Below, piece after piece: positions 4,834 through 60,773 of a stretch of DNA of 64,000 bases (its first letter is position 1; each line of letters starts with the position of its first letter). The notes under the pieces were generated by a model. That model saw only the letters and a program-made list of their open reading frames with translations. It made no database searches and was not told the origin of the DNA. This DNA comes from Flexistipes sp. (GTDB lineage Bacteria; Chrysiogenota; Deferribacteres; Deferribacterales; Flexistipitaceae), in NCBI RefSeq assembly GCF_036172515.1, contig NZ_JAXKVW010000013.1, positions 1-64,000 on the forward strand, written 5' to 3'. A program made the position numbers and the translations under genes.

Positions 4834-5589
4834 TTAGCTCTGGTTTACCTGCAGCGGACCCCAGGCCTGGCATGTTGCCATTACTTCCAAAGTATTTATA
4901 TTGACCCTCTCAGGTGTGTTTACCACCCAATATATTATTTCAGCGATATCTTCCGGCTGCAGTAAGTCGGCATTTTCATAAACTTTTTCAGCTTTTTTCT
5001 TATCACCTTTAAATCTCACCAGGGAAAATTCTGTTTCAGCCATTCCAGGCTCGATATTTGTCACCTTGACTTTTGTCCCCAGTAAATCAGCCCTAAGATT
5101 TCTTGAAAACTGCTGGACAAAAGACTTGGTTGCGCCGTAAACATTGCCACCCGGATACGGCCAGTTCCCCGCTGTGGAACCTATATTAACAATATGACCG
5201 CTGTTTTTCTTTACCATTGTTTTAAGAACACTTTTTGTGCAATACAAAAGTCCTTTAATATTTGTATCCACCATAACATCCCAGTCATCCAAATTTGCCT
5301 CATATGCCGGATCCAAGCCAAGGGCGAGACCGGCGTTATTGACAAGAACATCGATATCCCTGAATCCCTGCGGTAAATCTGTTATAAACTTTTCCACACT
5401 GCTACTGTTTCTCACATCAAGTTCTGAAGTGTAGACACTGGAAATATTGCCGAGTTTTTTCTCCAGGTTTTCAAGCCTTTCCTTCCTCCTGCCCGTCAAG
5501 ATTACGTTCCATTTGTTGTGGAAAAAAATTTCAGCACATGCTAATCCAAATCCGGAAGTCGCTCCTGTGATTAAAATTGTTTTTGACAT
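4834..5589 (-). CDS. Short-chain dehydrogenase/reductase (YdfG-like)
   Basis: 251-residue classical SDR. TGATSGFG nucleotide motif at residues ~8-15, NNAGLA near 88, catalytic Ser-Tyr-Lys as NIGSTAG ... YGATKSF. The later NIEPGMAETEF and C-terminal AEIIYWVVNTPERVNINTLEVM resemble the YdfG/serine-malonic-semialdehyde (3-hydroxy acid) dehydrogenase group, so an NADP-dependent hydroxy-acid dehydrogenase is likely; the substrate is unknown. The start at 5589 has AGGAGA 5 bases upstream; a TTG 21 bases earlier is not supported. Confidence 0.85.
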   Translation of the reverse strand: MSKTILITGATSGFGLACAEIFFHNKWNVILTGRRKERLENLEKKLGNISSVYTSELDVRNSSSVEKFITDLPQGFRDIDVLVNNAGLALGLDPAYEANLDDWDVMVDTNIKGLLYCTKSVLKTMVKKNSGHIVNIGSTAGNWPYPGGNVYGATKSFVQQFSRNLRADLLGTKVKVTNIEPGMAETEFSLVRFKGDKKKAEKVYENADLLQPEDIAEIIYWVVNTPERVNINTLEVMATCQAWGPLQVNQS

Positions 5590-5713
5590 AACAATCTCCT
5601 TTTTGGTCAATTTTATCCCATATGTTATTTTTTGTCTATATCTGTGAATTTTTCATGATCTCACATCTACAAGACATTGCTTATAAAGAAAAATGGCCAG
5701 CAAGACAGGTGCC

Positions 5714-5817: not shown

Positions 5818-6510
5818 ATGGAATTTTATGAAATGTTAAATAATTATTATGATGAAATATTTCCTTTCAGCAAGTCCACTTATGGTTTTATAAAAGAACT
5901 GGTACCTGAAAATGCACATTTGCTTGAGATAGGGTCTGCAACAGGCAAATATGTGAAAACTTTTCAAAAGGACGGATTCAAAGCTACTGGGCTTGAGTAC
6001 AGTAAAATATTTATGGATAACCCCTACGAAATGGTAATCGGTGACATGCATAAACTTCCCTTTAAAAAAGAGTCTTTTGAAACCGTATTTTGTATTGGTA
6101 ACACACTTGCTCATTCTATTGACAGAAATGAGGTCCATAAAGTACTTTACAGCGCTTTTTCTTTACTAAAACCCAAAGGCAGCTTGGTGGTTCAGACAGT
6201 AAATTATGACAGAATTTGCGCTAACGGTATCAAAGAATTGGATCCAATTGAAACACCTAATGTTAAGTTCGAGCGATATTATGAATATACCGACGACGAA
6301 CGGGTTGTATTCAAAGGTGTTTTGACGGACAAGAAAAATAATAAAAAACAGTCTTCCGAAGTGAATTTGGTACCTGTTTTTTATGAAGATTTTATAAGAG
6401 CCTCAAGCAGAACGGGCTCATCCTTTGTTTGTTTTAACGGAGATTTTGATTACGGTAAATTTTTTAAAAACGAAAGTTTTATGACTGTGGCTACCTTTAC
6501 GAAACCCTGA
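5818..6510 (+). CDS. Class I SAM-dependent methyltransferase
   Basis: 230 residues with a Rossmann methyltransferase fold: motif I LLEIGSATGKY (residues ~34-44), motif II acidic GLEYS, motif IV FETVFCIGNTLAH, then LLKPKGSLVVQTV. This is the methyltransf_11/25 type; the substrate is not evident. GGAGG at 5808-5812 decides the start at 5818. Its 3' end overlaps the convergent rsmB-like gene by 14 bases, with no terminator between them. Confidence 0.85.
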   Translation: MEFYEMLNNYYDEIFPFSKSTYGFIKELVPENAHLLEIGSATGKYVKTFQKDGFKATGLEYSKIFMDNPYEMVIGDMHKLPFKKESFETVFCIGNTLAHSIDRNEVHKVLYSAFSLLKPKGSLVVQTVNYDRICANGIKELDPIETPNVKFERYYEYTDDERVVFKGVLTDKKNNKKQSSEVNLVPVFYEDFIRASSRTGSSFVCFNGDFDYGKFFKNESFMTVATFTKP

Positions 6511-7617
6511 AAACAGCCCCAAAGAGGGCATCCATGCCATAACAGGCGGGGGATGTCCTGAAGAAGTCTAGGAGGCTGAGTTTGTCCGAGATGTCTTTGT
6601 CGAGTATATCAACGGCTTTTACTAATTCAAGCCGGTGATTATTGTCAAGGAAGTTGCTTACTTGTTTCTCATTTTCCTGTTCAAGGAAACTGCAGGTTAC
6701 ATATGCTATTAATCCGCCTGGTTTGACGTAAGATAACGCTTTGTTGAATATACTTTTTTGTAAGTCTGTATATTTTTCAAGCTTGTTGTTATCAAGCCTC
6801 ATGGGCAGATCAGCATCCCGCCGCATCGAACCAATACCTGAGCAGGGGGCATCCACCAGAACTTTATCAAAAAATCTATACTGCCCCTCTTTTAATTTTT
6901 TAAATTTAGCACCGGTTTTCTTAGACCTGTTTATGGCTTTTTGTATGCGGTTTTCATTTATATCGTGTATGTAAATATCCGCAGTGTTAAATGTTAAGGA
7001 AGAAATTCCCAAAGCCTTTCCTCCTGTTCCTGCACAGAAATCGAGAATTTTTTCGCCCGGTTTTATATCCAAAAGCAAAGGGATGAGCTGACTGGCTTCA
7101 TCCTGTATCTCAAAGTAACCTTTTTTAAACTCATTCAGCTGCCTGACATTTATATGCTGGTTGAAAGTAATGCCGAAAGGACTGACTTTGGTTGGAGAAG
7201 CATTGTATTTACCTGAGAATTTATCCAGCATCAAATCTTTTGTAGCCTTTAATGTGTTTATCCTGATACTCATCGGTGCCCGGTAGAAAAATGGACGTAT
7301 ATCATCCACATTTTTCAAAACGGTTTCAGCAAAATTAAGGCTGAAACCTGATATTTCCGATAGAGCAGAAGGGGAGTTTATATTTTTACTTTCAAGAACA
7401 TTATAAGCCTTTTCATAACTGAAATTTTCTGTGTCTTTCTTTAAAAGCCCGTAAAACCTGATACCACAGTAAAAATAATCCGTTATTTCGCGTCTGAGTG
7501 AAGAGCCGAAGTTATTATCTCTTAAAAATTTTTCCAGAAGGCTTCTTGCCAGTTCTCCAGACTCTGCGCATCTGATGATAAGTTCGTTTATTTTTTTTTT
7601 ACATCGTTATGAATCAT
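6497..7617 (-). CDS. RsmB-like rRNA (cytosine-5) methyltransferase, frame broken at an A10 tract
   Basis: From 7604 down to 6497 one open frame encodes a NusB-like helical N-part and an RsmB/NOP2 catalytic domain: FCAGTGGKA (SAM motif I), VDAPCSGIGSMRRDADL (motif IV Cys) and TCSFLEQEN (motif VI catalytic Cys), all intact. That frame has no ATG before the catalytic domain. The best start, ATG at 7617 with GAGG just upstream, reads nine codons into ten A's (complement of T7591-7600) and hits UAA. A -1 shift at the A-run, or one extra A in the transcript, restores a ~373-residue protein close to family size. It could be a sequencing error, a phase-variable gene or programmed slippage; an internal TTG start at 7318 would give only 273 residues. 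Confidence 0.75.
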
Positions 7618-7641
7618 GAGACCTCATTATGAACTCCTGTA

Positions 7642-7670
7642 TTGACTTTCATACAAGTAGAAAATATATT
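7642..7670 (+). promoter_or_regulatory. Sigma-70-type promoter for mnmA
   Basis: TTGACT (7642-7647) and TATATT (7665-7670) with a 17-base spacer, 35 bases before the TTG start of mnmA. Good match to consensus spacing. Confidence 0.6.
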
Positions 7671-7705
7671 CAAAACGCTTTAGAAGTCAATCACGGGGGT
7701 AAAAT

Positions 7706-8740
7706 TTGCCTGGGAAAGTTTTAGTGGCTATGAGCGGAGGAGTTGACAGTACCGTAACCGCTTACCTTTTAAAGAAGCAGGGGGCTGATGTTATCGGCTT
7801 AACCCTGAAAATGTTTGAAGGGCAGGAAAAGCATCTGGATGATGCAGGTAAAATGGCTGCAAAGCTAAATATACCATGGTATTTTGAGGATTATACAGAT
7901 TTTTTCCGTGATGAGGTTATATCATATTTTATAAATACATACAGAAAAGGTAAAACGCCCAATCCCTGCTGCTATTGCAATGAGTATGCAAAATTCAGAT
8001 ATCTTTTTGAACAGATGCAAAAGCATAATGCCGATAAGATAGCCACAGGGCACTATGCCCGTAAAACTTTTAAGAACGGACATTGGTTTATTGCAAAAGC
8101 CGCAAACCTAAAAAAGGATCAATCGTATTATTTGAGTCTGCTGGACGAATTTTATATAGGTTTAACTGAGTTTCCTTTAGGAGAATTCCCAAGCAAATAT
8201 CAGGTAAGAAAAATTGCTGAGGAGCTTGGTCTTGAAGTTTCCGGTAAGAAAGACAGCCAGGATGTCTGTTTTCTTGAGGGTGGGGATTACAGAGAATATC
8301 TGAGTGAAAAGATACCATCTGATAAAATCAAAAAGGGAAATTTTATTTACAAAGGTGAGATACTCAAAGAACACGAAGGGGTAGAATTCTATACTGTAGG
8401 TCAGAGGAAAGGTCTGAAAACAGGATTTCACAAGCCTTTATATGTTGTTGAAATTGACCCTGTTTCCAACAATATCTACCTTGGCTCCAAAGAGGAAACA
8501 TACTTTAAAGGTGTAAAGTTAGAGGAATGTAATTTTATTACAGAAAGAAAGTTTTTCAAATCTGAAATCAAATTAAGATACAGGATGAAAAGCGCAGCTT
8601 GTACAGTGGAGATTCTCCCTAATAATGAAGCGGCTGTACTTTTTGATGAAAAACAGTCAGCTCCCACACCGGGACAGGTGGCAGTAATTTATGATGGAGA
8701 TTTGGTTGCCGGAGGCGGAATAATAAGAAAGGCTTTTTGA
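7706..8740 (+). CDS. mnmA: tRNA-specific 2-thiouridylase MnmA
   Basis: 344 residues; thiolates U34 of tRNA-Lys/Glu/Gln using ATP and a persulfide relay. The N-terminal PP-loop KVLVAMSGGVDSTV is present, with TPNPCCYCNEYAKF carrying the first catalytic Cys, GHYAR, and SQDVCFLEGGDY with the second Cys. TVGQRKGL follows, then the C-terminal beta-barrel with PTPGQVAVIYDGD. The start codon is TTG at 7706, supported by GGGGG at 7695-7699 and the family N-terminus. Divergent from the rsmB-like gene. Confidence 0.95.
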   Translation: MPGKVLVAMSGGVDSTVTAYLLKKQGADVIGLTLKMFEGQEKHLDDAGKMAAKLNIPWYFEDYTDFFRDEVISYFINTYRKGKTPNPCCYCNEYAKFRYLFEQMQKHNADKIATGHYARKTFKNGHWFIAKAANLKKDQSYYLSLLDEFYIGLTEFPLGEFPSKYQVRKIAEELGLEVSGKKDSQDVCFLEGGDYREYLSEKIPSDKIKKGNFIYKGEILKEHEGVEFYTVGQRKGLKTGFHKPLYVVEIDPVSNNIYLGSKEETYFKGVKLEECNFITERKFFKSEIKLRYRMKSAACTVEILPNNEAAVLFDEKQSAPTPGQVAVIYDGDLVAGGGIIRKAF

Positions 8741-19354: not shown

Positions 19355-20092
19355 TCAGAAAAAAATCAGTTTTATTGCAAAAATTAAAACACAGATTACG
19401 ACAAACCATCTGATAAAATTGTTTCCTTTTAATACTGTTACCTTTGTACCGGCTAACGCACCTATAACGTTGCCGATGCTTAAAATCAGTCCTAAATAGA
19501 GATTAACTTTGCCCTGGATAAAAAATATGGCAAGGGCAAAGATGGTAAAAATCAATATAACGAATGTCTTTACGGCATTACCTGATACAAGATCGTAACC
19601 GGTAACGATTATTGCGGCTAAAATAAGAAATCCGACACCCGCCTGTATAAATCCCCCGTAAATACCTACAAAGAAAAAAGCGATTATGCTGAATACCCAT
19701 TTGCCTCGGGATAGCGAAATATCCTTTTGTTTCAATTTTCCCACAGGATTAAATAGGGTGATGAGTGTAATGGCCACCATAAAAAAAACCAGATAGTTTT
19801 TGAATGCTTCATCACTTATAATTGTGGCCAGATAGCTGCCTATTATGCTTCCAGCTATTGCCGGGATTGAAACAATAAGTGCGAATTTTGCTGGAAAAAC
19901 GCCGTACTGCTTAAACTTGACAGCCCCTATAAGGCTCTGCAAAAAGATGCCCAGTCTGTTGGTCCCGTTGGCAACAGTGGGAGGAAGTCCCATAAATATC
20001 AGTATGGGAATAGTGAGAAATGAGCCGCCTCCGGCCAATATATTTACAAAACCGGAAATTATTCCTATTAAAAATAGCACTATTTCAAGCAT
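19355..20092 (-). CDS. TauE/SafE-family membrane transporter
   Basis: 245 residues with about 7-8 hydrophobic segments. N-terminal IGIISGFVNILAGGGSFLTIPIL and PPTVANGTNRLGI are the typical TauE/SafE repeat motif, echoed by GIYGGFIQAGVGFLIL. The family exports sulfite/organosulfonates or related anions; the substrate is unknown here. The start is placed at the ATG at 20092; a TTG 15 bases earlier is possible and no strong ribosome site is visible for either. Convergent with the preceding small gene. Confidence 0.87.
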   Translation of the reverse strand: MLEIVLFLIGIISGFVNILAGGGSFLTIPILIFMGLPPTVANGTNRLGIFLQSLIGAVKFKQYGVFPAKFALIVSIPAIAGSIIGSYLATIISDEAFKNYLVFFMVAITLITLFNPVGKLKQKDISLSRGKWVFSIIAFFFVGIYGGFIQAGVGFLILAAIIVTGYDLVSGNAVKTFVILIFTIFALAIFFIQGKVNLYLGLILSIGNVIGALAGTKVTVLKGNNFIRWFVVICVLIFAIKLIFF

Positions 20093-20201
20093 ATGAGATA
20101 GTATCAAAAATAATTATTTTTTTCATTAAAAAGATTCATAAACCACTTTAAATTTGTGTTTTTATCATTATTTTAATTTCAGGTTATTTGTGAGGTGCGT
20201 T

Positions 20202-21281
20202 GTGAAAATGATATTTATACCACTTTCTGAATTTATACAGGCAAAATTTTCGTTAGTTTCGGAAGAAGGAGGCAATTGTTACGAAAAAGCGACTTTTGCC
20301 GGCGGGTGCTTTTGGTGCATGGAGGCGCTTTTCAAACAGGTTGATGGAGTAAAAAATGTTATCTCCGGTTATACCGGAGGAAAGACTGAAAATCCAACAT
20401 ATGAAGAGGTCTGTACTGGAAAAACCGGTCATTTTGAAGCTGTGCAGATTGTCTATAACCCTTCGGAAATTTCCTATGAAAAACTTCTCGAAATTTTCTG
20501 GAAAAATATAGACCCCACAGATCCTGCAGGCCAGTTTGCTGATAAGGGCAGTCAGTATAAAACTGCAGTTTTTTACCATAGTGAGAATCAAAAAGAAGCA
20601 GCTATAAAATACAGAGAAATTCTGGATGAAAGCGAAAAGTTCAGCAACCCTGTTGTTACAGAGATTCTCCCTGCATCAGTATTTTGCAAAGCAGAGGAAT
20701 ACCACCAGGATTATTTCAGAAAAAAAGTTAATCAATATAAATTTTACAGGGCGGCCTCAGGCAGGGATGAATTTTTAAACAGACTATGGCGTGGTAAAGA
20801 AAACATCTTTGACGAAAGACATAAAAATTACAGTAAACCTACAGATAGTGAACTTAGAAAGAAATTGACCAGAACTCAGTATGCTGTTACCCAGAAGAAT
20901 GCTACAGAAAAGCCTTTTGAAAATGAGTACTGGAACAATAAAGAAGAGGGTATTTATGTTGATGTTGTGTCAGGTGAGCCGCTTTTCAGCTCCACAGATA
21001 AGTTTAATTCGGGAACAGGCTGGCCGAGTTTTACACGACCTATTTCCGGTGAATTTATTGTGACAAAGGAAGATAAAAGCTTTCTGATGAAAAGAACAGA
21101 GGTTAGAAGCAGATATGCAGATTCACACCTGGGTCATCTGTTCCAAGACGGGCCGGAGCCAACGGGTCTGAGGTATTGTATCAATTCCGCATCATTAAAA
21201 TTTGTACCGAAATCACGGATGCAGGAAGAAGGGTACGATAAATACTTGTATCTTTTTGAAAATAATAGAAAATCAATTTAA
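20202..21281 (+). CDS. msrAB: Peptide methionine sulfoxide reductase MsrA-MsrB fusion
   Basis: 359 residues. MsrA domain ~20-185: [14 protein letters not shown] with the catalytic Cys, [29 protein letters not shown]. MsrB domain ~215-350: [36 protein letters not shown], and [11 protein letters not shown] with the catalytic Cys. The MsrB zinc CxxC pair is lacking, as in one class of MsrB. Reduces S- and R-methionine sulfoxide in proteins. No convincing signal peptide, so cytoplasmic. The start is GTG at 20202 (GAGGTG upstream) or ATG at 20208. Followed at 14 bases by a flavin-binding gene. Confidence 0.92.
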
Positions 21282-21295
21282 ATGCGAGGTGGCTT

Positions 21296-21685
21296 ATGAA
21301 ACTGGAACAATATTTTGAAAATGGTAAAGGAATGGGAGTTCTGGCTACTGCAGACAGATCAGGACAAGTTAACACAGCTTTGTATGCAAGACCTCATATA
21401 GAAAATGGCAATGCTGTCTTTGTTATGAGGGAAAGGAAAACATACGCGAATATCAATGAGAATGCCAGTGCGAACTATTTGTATGTTTCAGATGATGATA
21501 AGTTTGACGGAATCAGGATGTACATGACATTTTTGGAAGATAGTGCAGATCCTGCCGATGTGGATAAATACAGGCGGAGAAATTCGCCAGTGGAAAAAAC
21601 TCTTAATGAAGAGAGACTTCATCTTGTGACATTTAAGATTGATAAAATATTATCACTTATCGGAGATCGTGAAATTGAATTTTGA
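21296..21685 (+). CDS. Pyridoxamine-5'-phosphate-oxidase-fold flavoprotein
   Basis: 129 residues of the FMN-binding split-barrel family: GKGMGVLATADRSGQVNTALYARPHIENGNAVFVM, then KTYANINENASANYLYV. These proteins bind FMN, haem or F420; the reaction is unknown. GAGGTGG upstream supports ATG at 21296. Likely co-transcribed with msrAB, which would fit an oxidative-damage context, but that is inference. Confidence 0.82.
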   Translation: MKLEQYFENGKGMGVLATADRSGQVNTALYARPHIENGNAVFVMRERKTYANINENASANYLYVSDDDKFDGIRMYMTFLEDSADPADVDKYRRRNSPVEKTLNEERLHLVTFKIDKILSLIGDREIEF

Positions 21686-31199: not shown

Positions 31200-32492
31200 A
31201 TGGTGCCGGGAATTGCAAAACTTGAAAGTATAGGGAAAAAATATACTTCTGTACTGGCTGGTTTTATCGGGAATGTAATGGAGTGGTATGATTTTGCTCT
31301 TTATGGATATATGGCCAGTATCATTTCTCAGCAGTTTTTTCCCAGCAGTCATAATACAGCTTCCCTGCTTGCTACTTATGGGGTTTTTGCTGCCGGTTTT
31401 ATTATGAGGCCTTTGGGGTCAGCTTTATTTGGCTGGTTTGGCGACACCTTCGGGCGAAGTAAAACGATGCTTATTTCTGTTTCCATGATGTCGCTGCCGA
31501 CTTTTCTTTTGGGGTGTCTGCCCACCTTTGATACAGTAGGAATTCTGGCACCTATTTTACTTGTTTTGATAAGGCTGGTTCAAGGACTTTCAGTAGGCGG
31601 AGAATTTTCAAGCTCTGTGACATATCTGGTCGAAACAGCCCCAACAGGTAAAAGAGGGTTTACAGGCAGTTGGGCTAATACCGGCAGTATATTTGGAATG
31701 CTTTTGGGATCCGGTATTGCAGCATTACTTACTACAACTTTATCTTCTGAAGTAATTACCTCATGGGGTTGGAGAATACCTTTTCTTTTCGGTGGCGTTT
31801 TGGGAACTATCGCAATAATCCTACGGAAAGATTTGCCCAAGTCGAAGCATTTTGAAAAACATCACAAGCAAAGGTCGGAAACATCTCCATTGTTGGCTGC
31901 TTTTACGACAAACAGAAAAGAAATGATACAGGCTATTCTTTTTGCTTCCGCCTATGGTGTTTTGTTTTATATTCCGTTAGTATATTTACCCACTTGGTTA
32001 CATGAAGAGCTTAATTTTCAATTGGACAGTGCAATGAGGATAAATACAGCAGCTACAGCATTTTTGATGATTCTTATTCCGTTCGCAGGCAAATTAAGTG
32101 ACCATCTCATAAGAAGAACACATTTTATTTCTTTGGCAATGTTGATTTCTGCTGTCATTTCCTGGCCGGCATATTATTTCCTTCCTTCTGCAGGCTTTGC
32201 CGGTGTTGTATTGTTACAATTCATCTTTATAGTGATTGTGGCCGTACCTCTTGGCTCTGCCCCGGCAATGTTTGTAGAACTTTTTCCCAGTTGTGACAGA
32301 CTTTCCGGGTACTCGGTCGCATACAATCTGGGGCTTGGTGTAGTTGGTGGATCTGCCCCTATGATTTCCACATGGCTGATAGAGGTTACCTCGCTTTCGA
32401 CGGCTCCAGCGATATTTCTTGCTTTTGTTTCTTTGGTTGCCTTTGCGGTATCTTTATGGATTAAAGACGGCAGCAGGGAACCGCTTAAGTAA
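31200..32492 (+). CDS. MFS transporter, metabolite:H+ symporter (ProP/KgtP-like)
   Basis: 430 residues with 12 predicted membrane segments. GNVMEWYDFALYGYMASII is the start signature of the MHS family; GWFGDTFGRSK is the loop 2-3 motif and LVQGLSVGGEFSSSVTYLVE the conserved TM5 region. Substrates in the family include proline/betaine, dicarboxylates and 2-oxoglutarate; not resolvable here. AGGAGG at 31189-31194 fixes the ATG. Followed 66 bases later by the Fe-S protein gene, perhaps in one transcript. Confidence 0.9.
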   Translation: MVPGIAKLESIGKKYTSVLAGFIGNVMEWYDFALYGYMASIISQQFFPSSHNTASLLATYGVFAAGFIMRPLGSALFGWFGDTFGRSKTMLISVSMMSLPTFLLGCLPTFDTVGILAPILLVLIRLVQGLSVGGEFSSSVTYLVETAPTGKRGFTGSWANTGSIFGMLLGSGIAALLTTTLSSEVITSWGWRIPFLFGGVLGTIAIILRKDLPKSKHFEKHHKQRSETSPLLAAFTTNRKEMIQAILFASAYGVLFYIPLVYLPTWLHEELNFQLDSAMRINTAATAFLMILIPFAGKLSDHLIRRTHFISLAMLISAVISWPAYYFLPSAGFAGVVLLQFIFIVIVAVPLGSAPAMFVELFPSCDRLSGYSVAYNLGLGVVGGSAPMISTWLIEVTSLSTAPAIFLAFVSLVAFAVSLWIKDGSREPLK

Positions 32493-42902: not shown

Positions 42903-43616
42903 ATGATATCTATTAGAGTTATGAAAAATAAAAAAGTTTCAATAATAATTCCCGTTTTCAAAGAATACAATATTGACCATTTTGTTGCCGTACTCCAGCG
43001 GAAAGTAAAGAATTTTAATGTGGAAATAGTTGTTGTGGACGGTGATAGCTCAGGTTCTACAATCTCCAGGCTTGAAAAGTACGATCTGAAAACAATTACA
43101 AGCGAAAAGGGCAGAGGTACTCAGCTTAAAAAAGGTGCTGAGCACTCAACAGGTGATCTTCTGCTCTTTCTTCATGCAGATACCGAACTTCCTGATAATT
43201 TTTATTCAGCTGTTACAGACACTTGTGACAAAATTTCTTCCTGCGGAGCCTTCAGCTTAAAAATTGATTCCGGCAAACATCTTTACAGAATAATAGAATT
43301 TTTTACGAATTTAAGGGCGAAATATTTGCAGATGCCTTTTGGGGATCAGGCAATCTTTGTGAAACGCGAGGCTTATTTTGAATCAGGAGGTTTTTTAGAG
43401 ATACCTGTTTTTGAAGATGTGGATCTTGTCAGGAAGTTAAAAAAAAGTGGAGCAAAGATTCATATTTTAAAAGAAACGGTGACAACATCTTCAAGAAGAT
43501 GGGAATCTGAAGGAATTTTAAAAGCAACGATGCGTAATTGGTATTTACAAATACTTTATTTTGTATTTAATATAAATCCACATTATCTTAAAAAGTTTTA
43601 CAGGAGTCAAAAATGA
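42903..43616 (+). CDS. GT2-fold transferase, rSAM/selenodomain-associated type 2
   Basis: 237 residues. KVSIIIPVFKE, then VEIVVVDGDSSGST (nucleotide-sugar motif), KGRGTQLKKGAEHSTGDLLLFLHADTELP with the DxD-like HADT, FGDQAIFVKREAYFESGGF, EDVDLVRKLKKSG and TTSSRRWESEGI. This pattern is diagnostic of the TIGR04283 group that co-occurs with selenodomain/ArsS radical-SAM proteins. Presumed glycosyl transfer to an arsenic compound or lipid. The start may be ATG 42903 or 42921; neither has a strong ribosome site. The stop overlaps the next ATG (ATGA). Confidence 0.88.
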   Translation: MISIRVMKNKKVSIIIPVFKEYNIDHFVAVLQRKVKNFNVEIVVVDGDSSGSTISRLEKYDLKTITSEKGRGTQLKKGAEHSTGDLLLFLHADTELPDNFYSAVTDTCDKISSCGAFSLKIDSGKHLYRIIEFFTNLRAKYLQMPFGDQAIFVKREAYFESGGFLEIPVFEDVDLVRKLKKSGAKIHILKETVTTSSRRWESEGILKATMRNWYLQILYFVFNINPHYLKKFYRSQK

Positions 43617-45595
43617 ATGAAGTGCAGAATACAATCAACAAAATCTCGCTAAAAAGGAAACAACTGTCAATCATACAAATAAATATGGGTAATCTTTGCA
43701 ATCACGCATGCAGCCACTGCCATATTGAGGCCTCTCCGGAGGGAGAGAATATAATGGATTATGATACTTCTGTTAAAGTTATTGAAAAACTTAAAAAAAT
43801 GAACATTGAAAATATAGAAATTACAGGCGGAACACCGGAAATGAACCCCAACTTCAGGATGTTTCTGGAAGAATTGGGAAATTTGAAAAAGTTAACTGTA
43901 AGATCTAGTCTGACAATACTGAACAGCAGTAAATACAGTCATTTTAAAGAACTTTATAAAAAATATAATGTTAAGATTATAGCTTCGCTGCCCAGCATTC
44001 TTGAGGATATAACAGACACCCAGAGGGGGAAGAATTATTATAAAACATCAATAAATGTTCTGAAAGATTTGAATGAAATTGGTTACGGAACAACACTGCC
44101 GTTGGATATTGTTTATAACCCTGCCGGTGATTATCTCCCGCCGGAACAGGTAAAACTCCAGAATGAATTCAGAAATTTCCTCGGTGAAAATTTCGGTGTG
44201 TCGTTCAATAAGCTATCGGCAATTGTTAATGTTCCCATTAAACGTTTTCGGGATTATCTTGTAAAGAACAACCGGTATGAAAATTATATCGATCTGCTTT
44301 TCAGTAATCATAACAAAGCCACATGGCAAAACGTAATGTGCCGGAGTTTGCTGACTGTCGGTCATGACGGCAGAATTTACGATTGTGACTTTAATTATGC
44401 ACTAAGGATACCTGTAAAGGGATTTGAGGACGTTTATTTCTGGGATATTGACCCGGATAATTTCGAATCTGAAATTATTGTAGGAGAGCACTGCCTTGCC
44501 TGTACTGTTAACAGGGGGAGCAGCTGCCACGGTGAATTGAAAAGTTTTGACACGGAAGAGGTGGTTAAAGGCTATTACGGCAGTACTCTGAGCTCCTCAA
44601 ACGATCTTAAAACTACTGCATGTTGCGATCTCGACGATATTCCCGAATATGTGAAAGATATTTCTCCGTTGATTGCCGATGAAATCCAGATGAAATTCTA
44701 CGGTTGCGGATCTCCAATTCCTCTGCATCTGGAAGGGTGCAGTGTGGTTGATTTGGGCTGCGGCACAGGAAGAGATTCTTATATAATATCCAAACTTGCA
44801 GGAGAACATGGAAGAGTGCTCGGTATAGACATGACGAATGAGCAGATAGATGTGGCCCGAAAATATGTCAATACCCAGATGAAAGCTTTCGGATATGAAA
44901 ACAAAAATGTAAAATTTGTGCATGATTATATAGAAAATGCATTGGAATATGTTTATTCCGGTTCTGCCGATGTGGTTATATCCAACTGTGTGATAAACCT
45001 GACTGAGGATAAGGGGAGGGTTTTGGATGATATTTATCGTATGCTGAAAAACGGCGGTGAGTTTTACTTTTCAGATGTTTATGCCGACAGGAGACTGCCG
45101 GATGATATCAGAAAAAATGATCTTCTTTATGCGGAATGTCTTGGCGGAGCTCTTTATATAAATGATTTTATGAGGCTTGCGCGCAAGGCGGGGTTTAATG
45201 ATCCAAGGGTTATGAATTTCCGTGAGATTGAGATTACAAATAAAAAGGTTAAAGACCTTGTGGGAAATGCAAGATTTTATTCCGTTACATACAGACTGTT
45301 TAAAATTGATGGACTGGAGGATGCCTGTGAAGATTACGGGCATGTGGCAATATACAAAGGCGAGCTGAAATATTCGGAAAACAAATTTATTCTGGATGAA
45401 GAACATGTTTTTGAAAAAAATAAGCCCGAGAGGGTTTGCGGCAACACAGCTCTTATGCTCAGCAAATCCAGATTTAGAAATTATTTTACAATTATAGGTG
45501 ATTTTGATGAGCATTTCGGAGCGTTTGAGGATTGCGGAGGAAAAATACAGGGTAAAGAGAATGTTGATAATACAGATAAAGGATGCTGCTGTTGA
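43613..45595 (+). CDS. ArsS (radical SAM) - ArsM (arsenite methyltransferase) fusion protein
   Basis: 660 residues, two complete enzymes in one chain. ArsS part ~1-318: radical-SAM cysteines C29, C33, C36 in CNHACSHCHIEASP, TGGTPEMNPNF, and the C-terminal DUF3641 block GRIYDCDFNYAL ... GEHCLACTVNRGSSCHGEL. ArsM part ~320-660: YYGSTLSSSNDLKTTACC, SAM motif VVDLGCGTGRD (~378), ISNCVINL, then the C-terminal ArsM extension with VCGNTALMLSKSRFRNYF, HFGAFEDCGG and a terminal KGCCC. ArsS is known to make a dimethylarsinoyl-deoxyadenosine from dimethylarsinate and SAM; ArsM supplies methylarsenicals. AGGAG upstream; start overlaps the previous stop. Confidence 0.9.
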   Translation: MNEVQNTINKISLKRKQLSIIQINMGNLCNHACSHCHIEASPEGENIMDYDTSVKVIEKLKKMNIENIEITGGTPEMNPNFRMFLEELGNLKKLTVRSSLTILNSSKYSHFKELYKKYNVKIIASLPSILEDITDTQRGKNYYKTSINVLKDLNEIGYGTTLPLDIVYNPAGDYLPPEQVKLQNEFRNFLGENFGVSFNKLSAIVNVPIKRFRDYLVKNNRYENYIDLLFSNHNKATWQNVMCRSLLTVGHDGRIYDCDFNYALRIPVKGFEDVYFWDIDPDNFESEIIVGEHCLACTVNRGSSCHGELKSFDTEEVVKGYYGSTLSSSNDLKTTACCDLDDIPEYVKDISPLIADEIQMKFYGCGSPIPLHLEGCSVVDLGCGTGRDSYIISKLAGEHGRVLGIDMTNEQIDVARKYVNTQMKAFGYENKNVKFVHDYIENALEYVYSGSADVVISNCVINLTEDKGRVLDDIYRMLKNGGEFYFSDVYADRRLPDDIRKNDLLYAECLGGALYINDFMRLARKAGFNDPRVMNFREIEITNKKVKDLVGNARFYSVTYRLFKIDGLEDACEDYGHVAIYKGELKYSENKFILDEEHVFEKNKPERVCGNTALMLSKSRFRNYFTIIGDFDEHFGAFEDCGGKIQGKENVDNTDKGCCC

Positions 45596-59660: not shown

Positions 59661-60773
59661 TTAAATCCTCCTGACTGAGTATTTGCCGTCCATATCGTAC
59701 TGAACCATACCTTTTAATTCCATCCCTGATAAAGTAGTGATTACCGTGGGAGCATTTTTACCGGAATGCATGCAGATTTCGTCTATTGAAAGCGGTTCAG
59801 TTTTTAAAATATTATAAATTTCCTTTTCTTCGCCCGAGTCAAAATTAATATTATAGTCATCATCTTTATTGTCAACCATTTTTGGAAAATTTAGGAATCT
59901 TGTAAACTCCTCCACAACATCCATATAATTTTCCGTTAATTTTGCTCCGTTTTTCAGGAGTTTGTTTGTGGCGCTGTTGTGATTTTTCGGCCATGCCGGT
60001 ACGGCAAATACCTCTCTGTTATTTTCAACAGCATAGCGTGCAGTAATAAGTGAGCCGCTTTTTTCCGAAGCTTCCACTACAATTACTCCCAGTGACAAAC
60101 CGCTTATGATTCTGTTTCTTTTTGGGAAATTGATTGCCAGAGGCTCCTCTTCAAGAGGAAACTCGGAGATTATGCAGCCGTTTTTCAGAATATCTTTCAT
60201 ATACTTTTTGTTGTAGCCGGGATAAACCTTTAACAGACCGTTGCCAAAAACGGCTGTTGTGTGCCCTTTGCTAATTGCACCGAGATGGGCATTGATATCT
60301 ATACCGGCAGCAAAACCGCTTACGACATTAAATCCGATTTCCGCAAGTTCAACTGATAGTTCAAATGCGAATTCTTTAGCGCTTTTACTGCATTTCCTTG
60401 CCCCTACAACTGCAATGGACGGATTCTCCAGTACACTGATATCTCCGTATGTATACAGATAAGCAGGAGGAGAATTTATTTCCTTTAACAAAGCCGGATA
60501 AAGATCATCTTCCCGGAGAATCATTCTTATTTTATATTTTCTGATTTTTTCCAGTTCATTTTTGAGAAATGTTTTCTCTACAGAGTAGTTCTTAATTGAG
60601 CCGATTTGACTGCTGCTGAAACCGGCATTGCTTAATGTTTCTGAGTCCATATTGAAAACACCATCAAGGCTGCCCGTTTTCCTGACAAGAGAATTTATTG
60701 AATTATCTGAGATACCTTTGATACTTTTTAAAGCGAGGTACTGCTCTATCAAATCAAAATTCTGCAGTTTCAT
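59661..60773 (-). CDS. dprA: DNA-processing protein DprA (Smf)
   Basis: 370 residues. N-terminal SAM-like segment, then Rossmann fold: VGARKCSKSAKEFAFELSVELAEIGFNVVSGFAAGIDINAHLGAI, GNGLLKVYPGYNKKYM, FPLEEEPLAINFPKRNRIISGLSLGVIVVEA, SGSLITARYAVENNREVFAVP. C-terminal winged helix (~300-370). Loads RecA on incoming single-stranded DNA. Start overlaps the selB end by 20 bases. Confidence 0.93.
   Translation of the reverse strand: MKLQNFDLIEQYLALKSIKGISDNSINSLVRKTGSLDGVFNMDSETLSNAGFSSSQIGSIKNYSVEKTFLKNELEKIRKYKIRMILREDDLYPALLKEINSPPAYLYTYGDISVLENPSIAVVGARKCSKSAKEFAFELSVELAEIGFNVVSGFAAGIDINAHLGAISKGHTTAVFGNGLLKVYPGYNKKYMKDILKNGCIISEFPLEEEPLAINFPKRNRIISGLSLGVIVVEASEKSGSLITARYAVENNREVFAVPAWPKNHNSATNKLLKNGAKLTENYMDVVEEFTRFLNFPKMVDNKDDDYNINFDSGEEKEIYNILKTEPLSIDEICMHSGKNAPTVITTLSGMELKGMVQYDMDGKYSVRRI

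Follow-up and report, generated by a model that had tools for sequence, protein, structure and literature searches.

A ten-adenine tract beside the start codon breaks an apparently accessory RNA methyltransferase-like gene in Flexistipes sp.

Results

Structure of the interrupted gene

The window, i.e., the 64-kb stretch of the Flexistipes genome under study (G000; 2.47 Mb, 31 contigs), harbors on its minus strand an RNA methyltransferase-like gene that is split by a run of ten adenines (A10) directly downstream of its start. The data presented below suggest that this is probably a recent, ordinary frameshift in an accessory methyltransferase gene, which occurred in this lineage only and is perhaps partly compensated by slippage.

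The minus strand from 7617 to 7588 reads ATG ATT CAT AAC GAT GTA AAA AAA AAA TAA; this matches the earlier note on this DNA, according to which the start at 7617 runs nine codons into ten A's and then meets UAA. The long frame (AAA ATA AAC GAA...) is one base off the frame of ATG 7617, as that note had also reported, and is open for about 365–369 codons from 7606 to 6500 (369 when counted from 7606 to the stop at 6499-6497). Its statement that no ATG precedes the catalytic part was inexact, since ATG 7273 (and TTG 7318) lie upstream of the catalytic, Rossmann domain; starting at either codon would entail the loss of about 90–106 N-terminal residues that are present in all homologues. The short upstream ORF lies in the long frame but is closed by TAA, and its counterpart in G001, the closest relative, ends with TAG. 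Sigma-70-like sites numbered 3, versus 0.6 in shuffles. The features of the region are listed in Table 1.

Table 1. Features of the interrupted gene and its surroundings (window coordinates).
Feature	Position	Strand	Basis or remark
Start ATG 7617 and nine-codon frame MIHNDVKKK, TAA 7590-7588	7588..7617	minus	Same ATG, open frame, in G001
A10 tract (T10 on the plus strand), site of the frame break	7591..7600	minus	Sequence
Long RsmB/RsmF-family RNA cytosine-C5 methyltransferase-like frame, stop-to-stop	6497..7606	minus	ORF, Pfam, alignment
Catalytic domain of the methyltransferase-like frame	about 7078-6509	minus	PF01189
First canonical in-frame internal starts, TTG 7318 and ATG 7273, 3' of the shift	7271..7318	minus	No Shine-Dalgarno (SD) by eye
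Short upstream ORF ATG AGG TCT CAT GAT TCA TAA, 6 codons, good SD spacing	7607..7627	minus	Read from sequence
AGGAG, Shine-Dalgarno-like	7634..7638	minus	Insertion site of the IS in G001
Sigma-70-like promoter match TTGACT-16-TATATT, 5' of the gene	7663..7690	minus	Consensus match only
mnmA, divergent neighbour, intact	7706..8740	plus	Same neighbour arrangement in G002

Identity of the methyltransferase

The window protein matches PF01189 with 118.5 bits (gathering score 27) over residues 172–361, and its best solved relatives are 2yxl, 1ixk, and 1sqf. Both catalytic cysteines are intact, in agreement with the earlier note: C250 (PC, motif IV) and C300 (TC, motif VI) align with those of 2yxl/1ixk, and the PCSG and TCS motifs harboring them are invariant in an alignment of 11 proteins. 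PF01189 with these two motifs is also what RsmB (Fmu/Sun) and RsmF, the 16S rRNA m5C methyltransferases, possess, and at the sequence level the window gene belongs to the RsmB/RsmF (NOL1/NOP2/Sun) m5C methyltransferase superfamily. Unlike RsmB, the window protein scores far below the NCBIfam RsmB equivalog cut-offs (173.8 vs. 319 and 145.5 vs. 269 bits), as does the intact G001 copy (176 bits against the RsmB models), and PF01029 (NusB) has no match in the window protein or in the copies of G001 and G002. The RsmB cut-off alone is not decisive, because the RsmB candidate on contig C2 (L073; 393 aa, intact, with a NusB domain and PF01189) also falls below it (226 vs. 319). This bona fide RsmB is accompanied on the same contig by an intact RsmF-like protein of 458 aa. 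The possibility that the window gene is the RsmB of this genome was rejected on the basis of its scores, of the missing NusB domain and of the likely RsmB on contig C2; its sequence indicates instead a third, accessory RsmB/RsmF-family paralogue. Thus, the label "rsmB-like" is acceptable at the superfamily level (PF01189, cysteines) and wrong for RsmB proper, which is another gene.

Comparison with relatives

G001 is represented by a finished, Illumina-polished genome of 2,526,590 bases. Its copy of the gene (L003; 95% identical) is a single open frame, ATG ATT CAT AGC GAT GTA AGA AAA AAG ATA AAC GAA. Following GT, G001 carries AAGAAAAAAGA, an interrupted purine stretch of 11 bases, where the window has A10; the window tract is therefore one base shorter and consists entirely of A where G001 carries G's, and the shortest path between the two would comprise one substitution and one deletion. 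The relatives thus agree with the earlier proposal that a tract one base longer would join the two frames, the 11-base stretch of G001 being open. The copy in the third Flexistipes genome, G002 (54–55% identity), is open as well, with a GTG start that precedes the same Ile by nine residues, and adjoins the same mnmA, methyltransferase, and SDR genes as in the window. Eight more homologues in the order (40–45% identity) are all open frames, and A10 was found at this site in none of the 10 homologous loci compared, including those of the same genus. Clear homologues are missing from several families of the order, and a scan of the genome contigs with the window protein retrieved distant loci only. 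Elsewhere, a second family copy (G009:C9:210753-211750) occurs as two adjacent pieces (residues 4–68 and 72–331), possibly another frameshift.

The G001 copy, whose frame is open, bears a different lesion: an insertion sequence (IS) of about 1619 bp has entered at AGGAG, 16 bases before the start codon, with a duplication of 5 bp, and separates the promoter-like match from the gene; transcription out of the IS into the gene is possible. This IS had nine full-length 100% matches in the 240 kb of G001 examined (2090001-2330000), the gene-leader insertion included. The IS (at 2235949-2237572 and in eight further copies) is young, with a 439-aa transposase-like ORF and copies 100% identical, and the window lacks it. 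That two close relatives carry different lesions at the 5' end suggests that the gene is dispensable and that little depends on it; the IS in the G001 leader, together with the absence of clear homologues from several families, suggests that its loss is tolerated.

Of the window genes that were compared with G001, only the methyltransferase-like gene has a broken frame in the window; several others, intact there, have broken orthologues in G001 (among them SDR, TauE, Msr, and a radical-SAM protein). The TauE/SafE family gene (19355-20107, minus strand), intact with A/T8 in the window, is split at A/T10 in G001 (2221984-2221993), so that the other genome shows a lesion of this kind too. Two-frame matches to the G001 orthologues were obtained for the SDR gene (4834-5610, minus), the MsrA/B fusion (20154-21281, plus), a gene of unknown product (21296-21685, plus), and the radical-SAM/DUF3641 methyltransferase (43613-45595, plus), all intact in the window; some of these may be indels. 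The same holds for DprA (59661-60773, minus), whose two-frame G001 orthologue may reflect an IS insertion. Furthermore, a metal-ABC substrate-binding-like gene of G001 (G001:C1:1077729-1077738; L034, L076) is seemingly split at T10, and a sugar/MFS transporter gene of the window (31200-32492, plus) lacks a close match in the otherwise collinear G001 region.

Age of the break

The G000 and G001 copies, compared over 364 codons, show a dN of 0.024 and a dS of 0.128 (dN/dS 0.18), inside the range of most window genes (0.02–0.23). Of the 17 amino-acid differences, 3 were polarised to the window branch, 4 to that of G001, and 10 to neither. The gene has therefore been under purifying selection until recently, and the neighbour-like dN/dS and the lack of excess change on the window branch suggest that either the break is recent or the protein is still made. 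An old pseudogene, against which the earlier note had argued from the intact cysteines, was rejected on the same values.

Frequency of A10 tracts

In the whole genome (both strands) there are 453 A8, 46 A9, and 3 A10 runs and none longer, each extra base making A runs roughly tenfold fewer; this drop agrees with the avoidance of runs of at least about nine reported for many bacteria (PMC1088944). A10 is thus rare, but no rarer than the tail of the run-length distribution leads one to expect. Within the window, whose 64 kb contain one A10 versus about 6.6 in dinucleotide-keeping shuffles, the tract at 7600-7591 exceeds every other A/T homopolymer in length. Of the three genomic A10 runs, one is that of the window gene, one belongs to a terminator-like sequence after a long frame, and one sits in a short fragment that by reading resembles a transposase.

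Discussion

Alternative explanations

A miscount of the A run in sequencing or assembly, the real gene being open and ordinary, is rather unlikely, although a wrong tract length would yield the same sequence and counts against our preferred explanation to that extent. The break sits at the window's longest A/T homopolymer, where miscounts happen, and the remainder of the gene is under normal constraint; against a miscount, the coding A9 runs sampled among the 46 of the genome are mostly in open frames, and one compared gene is broken in the window versus several in the finished, Illumina-polished G001, so that the window assembly has no general excess of indels. General homopolymer miscalling was discarded on these two grounds. 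A translation start downstream of the tract (ATA by the tract, TTG 7318, or ATG 7273), with a protein functional without its N-terminus, is very improbable: the stretch preceding the shared Ile varies in length and shows little conservation, and the entire PF01189 domain lies 3' of the tract, but neither an SD nor a canonical start occurs near the tract, and use of the TTG or ATG would delete the N-terminal residues kept by all homologues.

We also consider it improbable that A10 is a functional regulatory slippery site setting the level of the enzyme, whether by recoding (transcriptional slippage included) or by phase variation, i.e., an on/off switch close to the start codon that works by replication slippage. 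The position of the site near the start, the intact downstream gene, the low dN/dS, and the documented slippage on A9–A11 (PMC1088944, PMC4256274, PMC3017870) are in its favor. Moreover, a slippery heptamer A_AAA_AAA is present in the zero frame (GTA AAA AAA AAA TAA), and a -1 ribosomal shift there, before the UAA, would join both frames. However, the tract is missing from all the relatives and stimulators are lacking: folding of the 81 nt downstream is indistinguishable from that of shuffles (z 0.19), and inspection 8–15 nt 5' of the tract revealed no SD-like motif. In E. coli, -1 heptamers without stimulators reach at most about 10 times the background of 0.055% (PMC4066793). Programmed ribosomal frameshifting was therefore rejected; a -1 shift had been one of the options named in the earlier note. 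The absence of A10 from any relative, of downstream structure, and of an SD-like motif would thus make the frame break a lineage-specific one-base contraction, with no conserved recoding signal.

A recent frameshift with possible leakage

According to the preferred explanation, that of a recent lineage-specific frameshift, and if the DNA has been read correctly, as we infer, an ancestral interrupted purine stretch like that of G001 would have been turned into A10 next to the start codon by one or more G-to-A changes and the loss of one base, in an order that is likewise presumed. Translated as DNA-templated, the allele would give a nine-residue peptide; in a minority of transcripts, RNA-polymerase slippage would probably add an extra A and yield the full-length enzyme, so that a knock-down appears more likely than a clean null. 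Such slippage on A10 is a plausible source of partial rescue, though not as a conserved mechanism, and seems a better candidate for leakage than a ribosomal -1 shift; the longer an A/T run in E. coli or Buchnera, the more often a single base is inserted, with an exponential increase (PMC5574713). Many long open genes of both G000 and G001 are crossed in frame by A9 runs, so there is no indication of strong slippage in this organism, and in the genus it must be tolerated or modest.

Poly-A/T frameshifted genes possibly or demonstrably rescued by transcriptional slippage are known from Blochmannia and Buchnera, according to PMC3017870 and work cited there; in those cases, as in the window, one indel within a run of at least 9 A's splits an otherwise intact, normally evolving gene, and an extra A would restore the frame. 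Unlike those bacteria, Flexistipes is free-living, the genus has about 38% GC, the genome has only three A10 runs, and the frameshift is not conserved. Similarly, in the A11 of Citrobacter rodentium tssM1 a poly-A leads into a stop and one additional A gives the full-length protein, by about 20–25% +1 transcriptional slippage (PMC4256274); both products of tssM1 are needed and the slippage was measured, whereas the short product predicted for the window gene has nine residues.

It is extremely improbable that a new contingency or slippage switch has arisen in A10 to set how much of this accessory RNA m5C methyltransferase is made; if this were true, RNA modification would vary within a clonal Flexistipes population. 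Annotation should flag the gene as frameshifted and avoid the name rsmB. As a recent frameshift, the case is a clean example of how a poly-A run breaks a gene that a free-living bacterium can apparently do without; the A10 break and the IS in the G001 leader together suggest ongoing loss of this third m5C methyltransferase from the genus.
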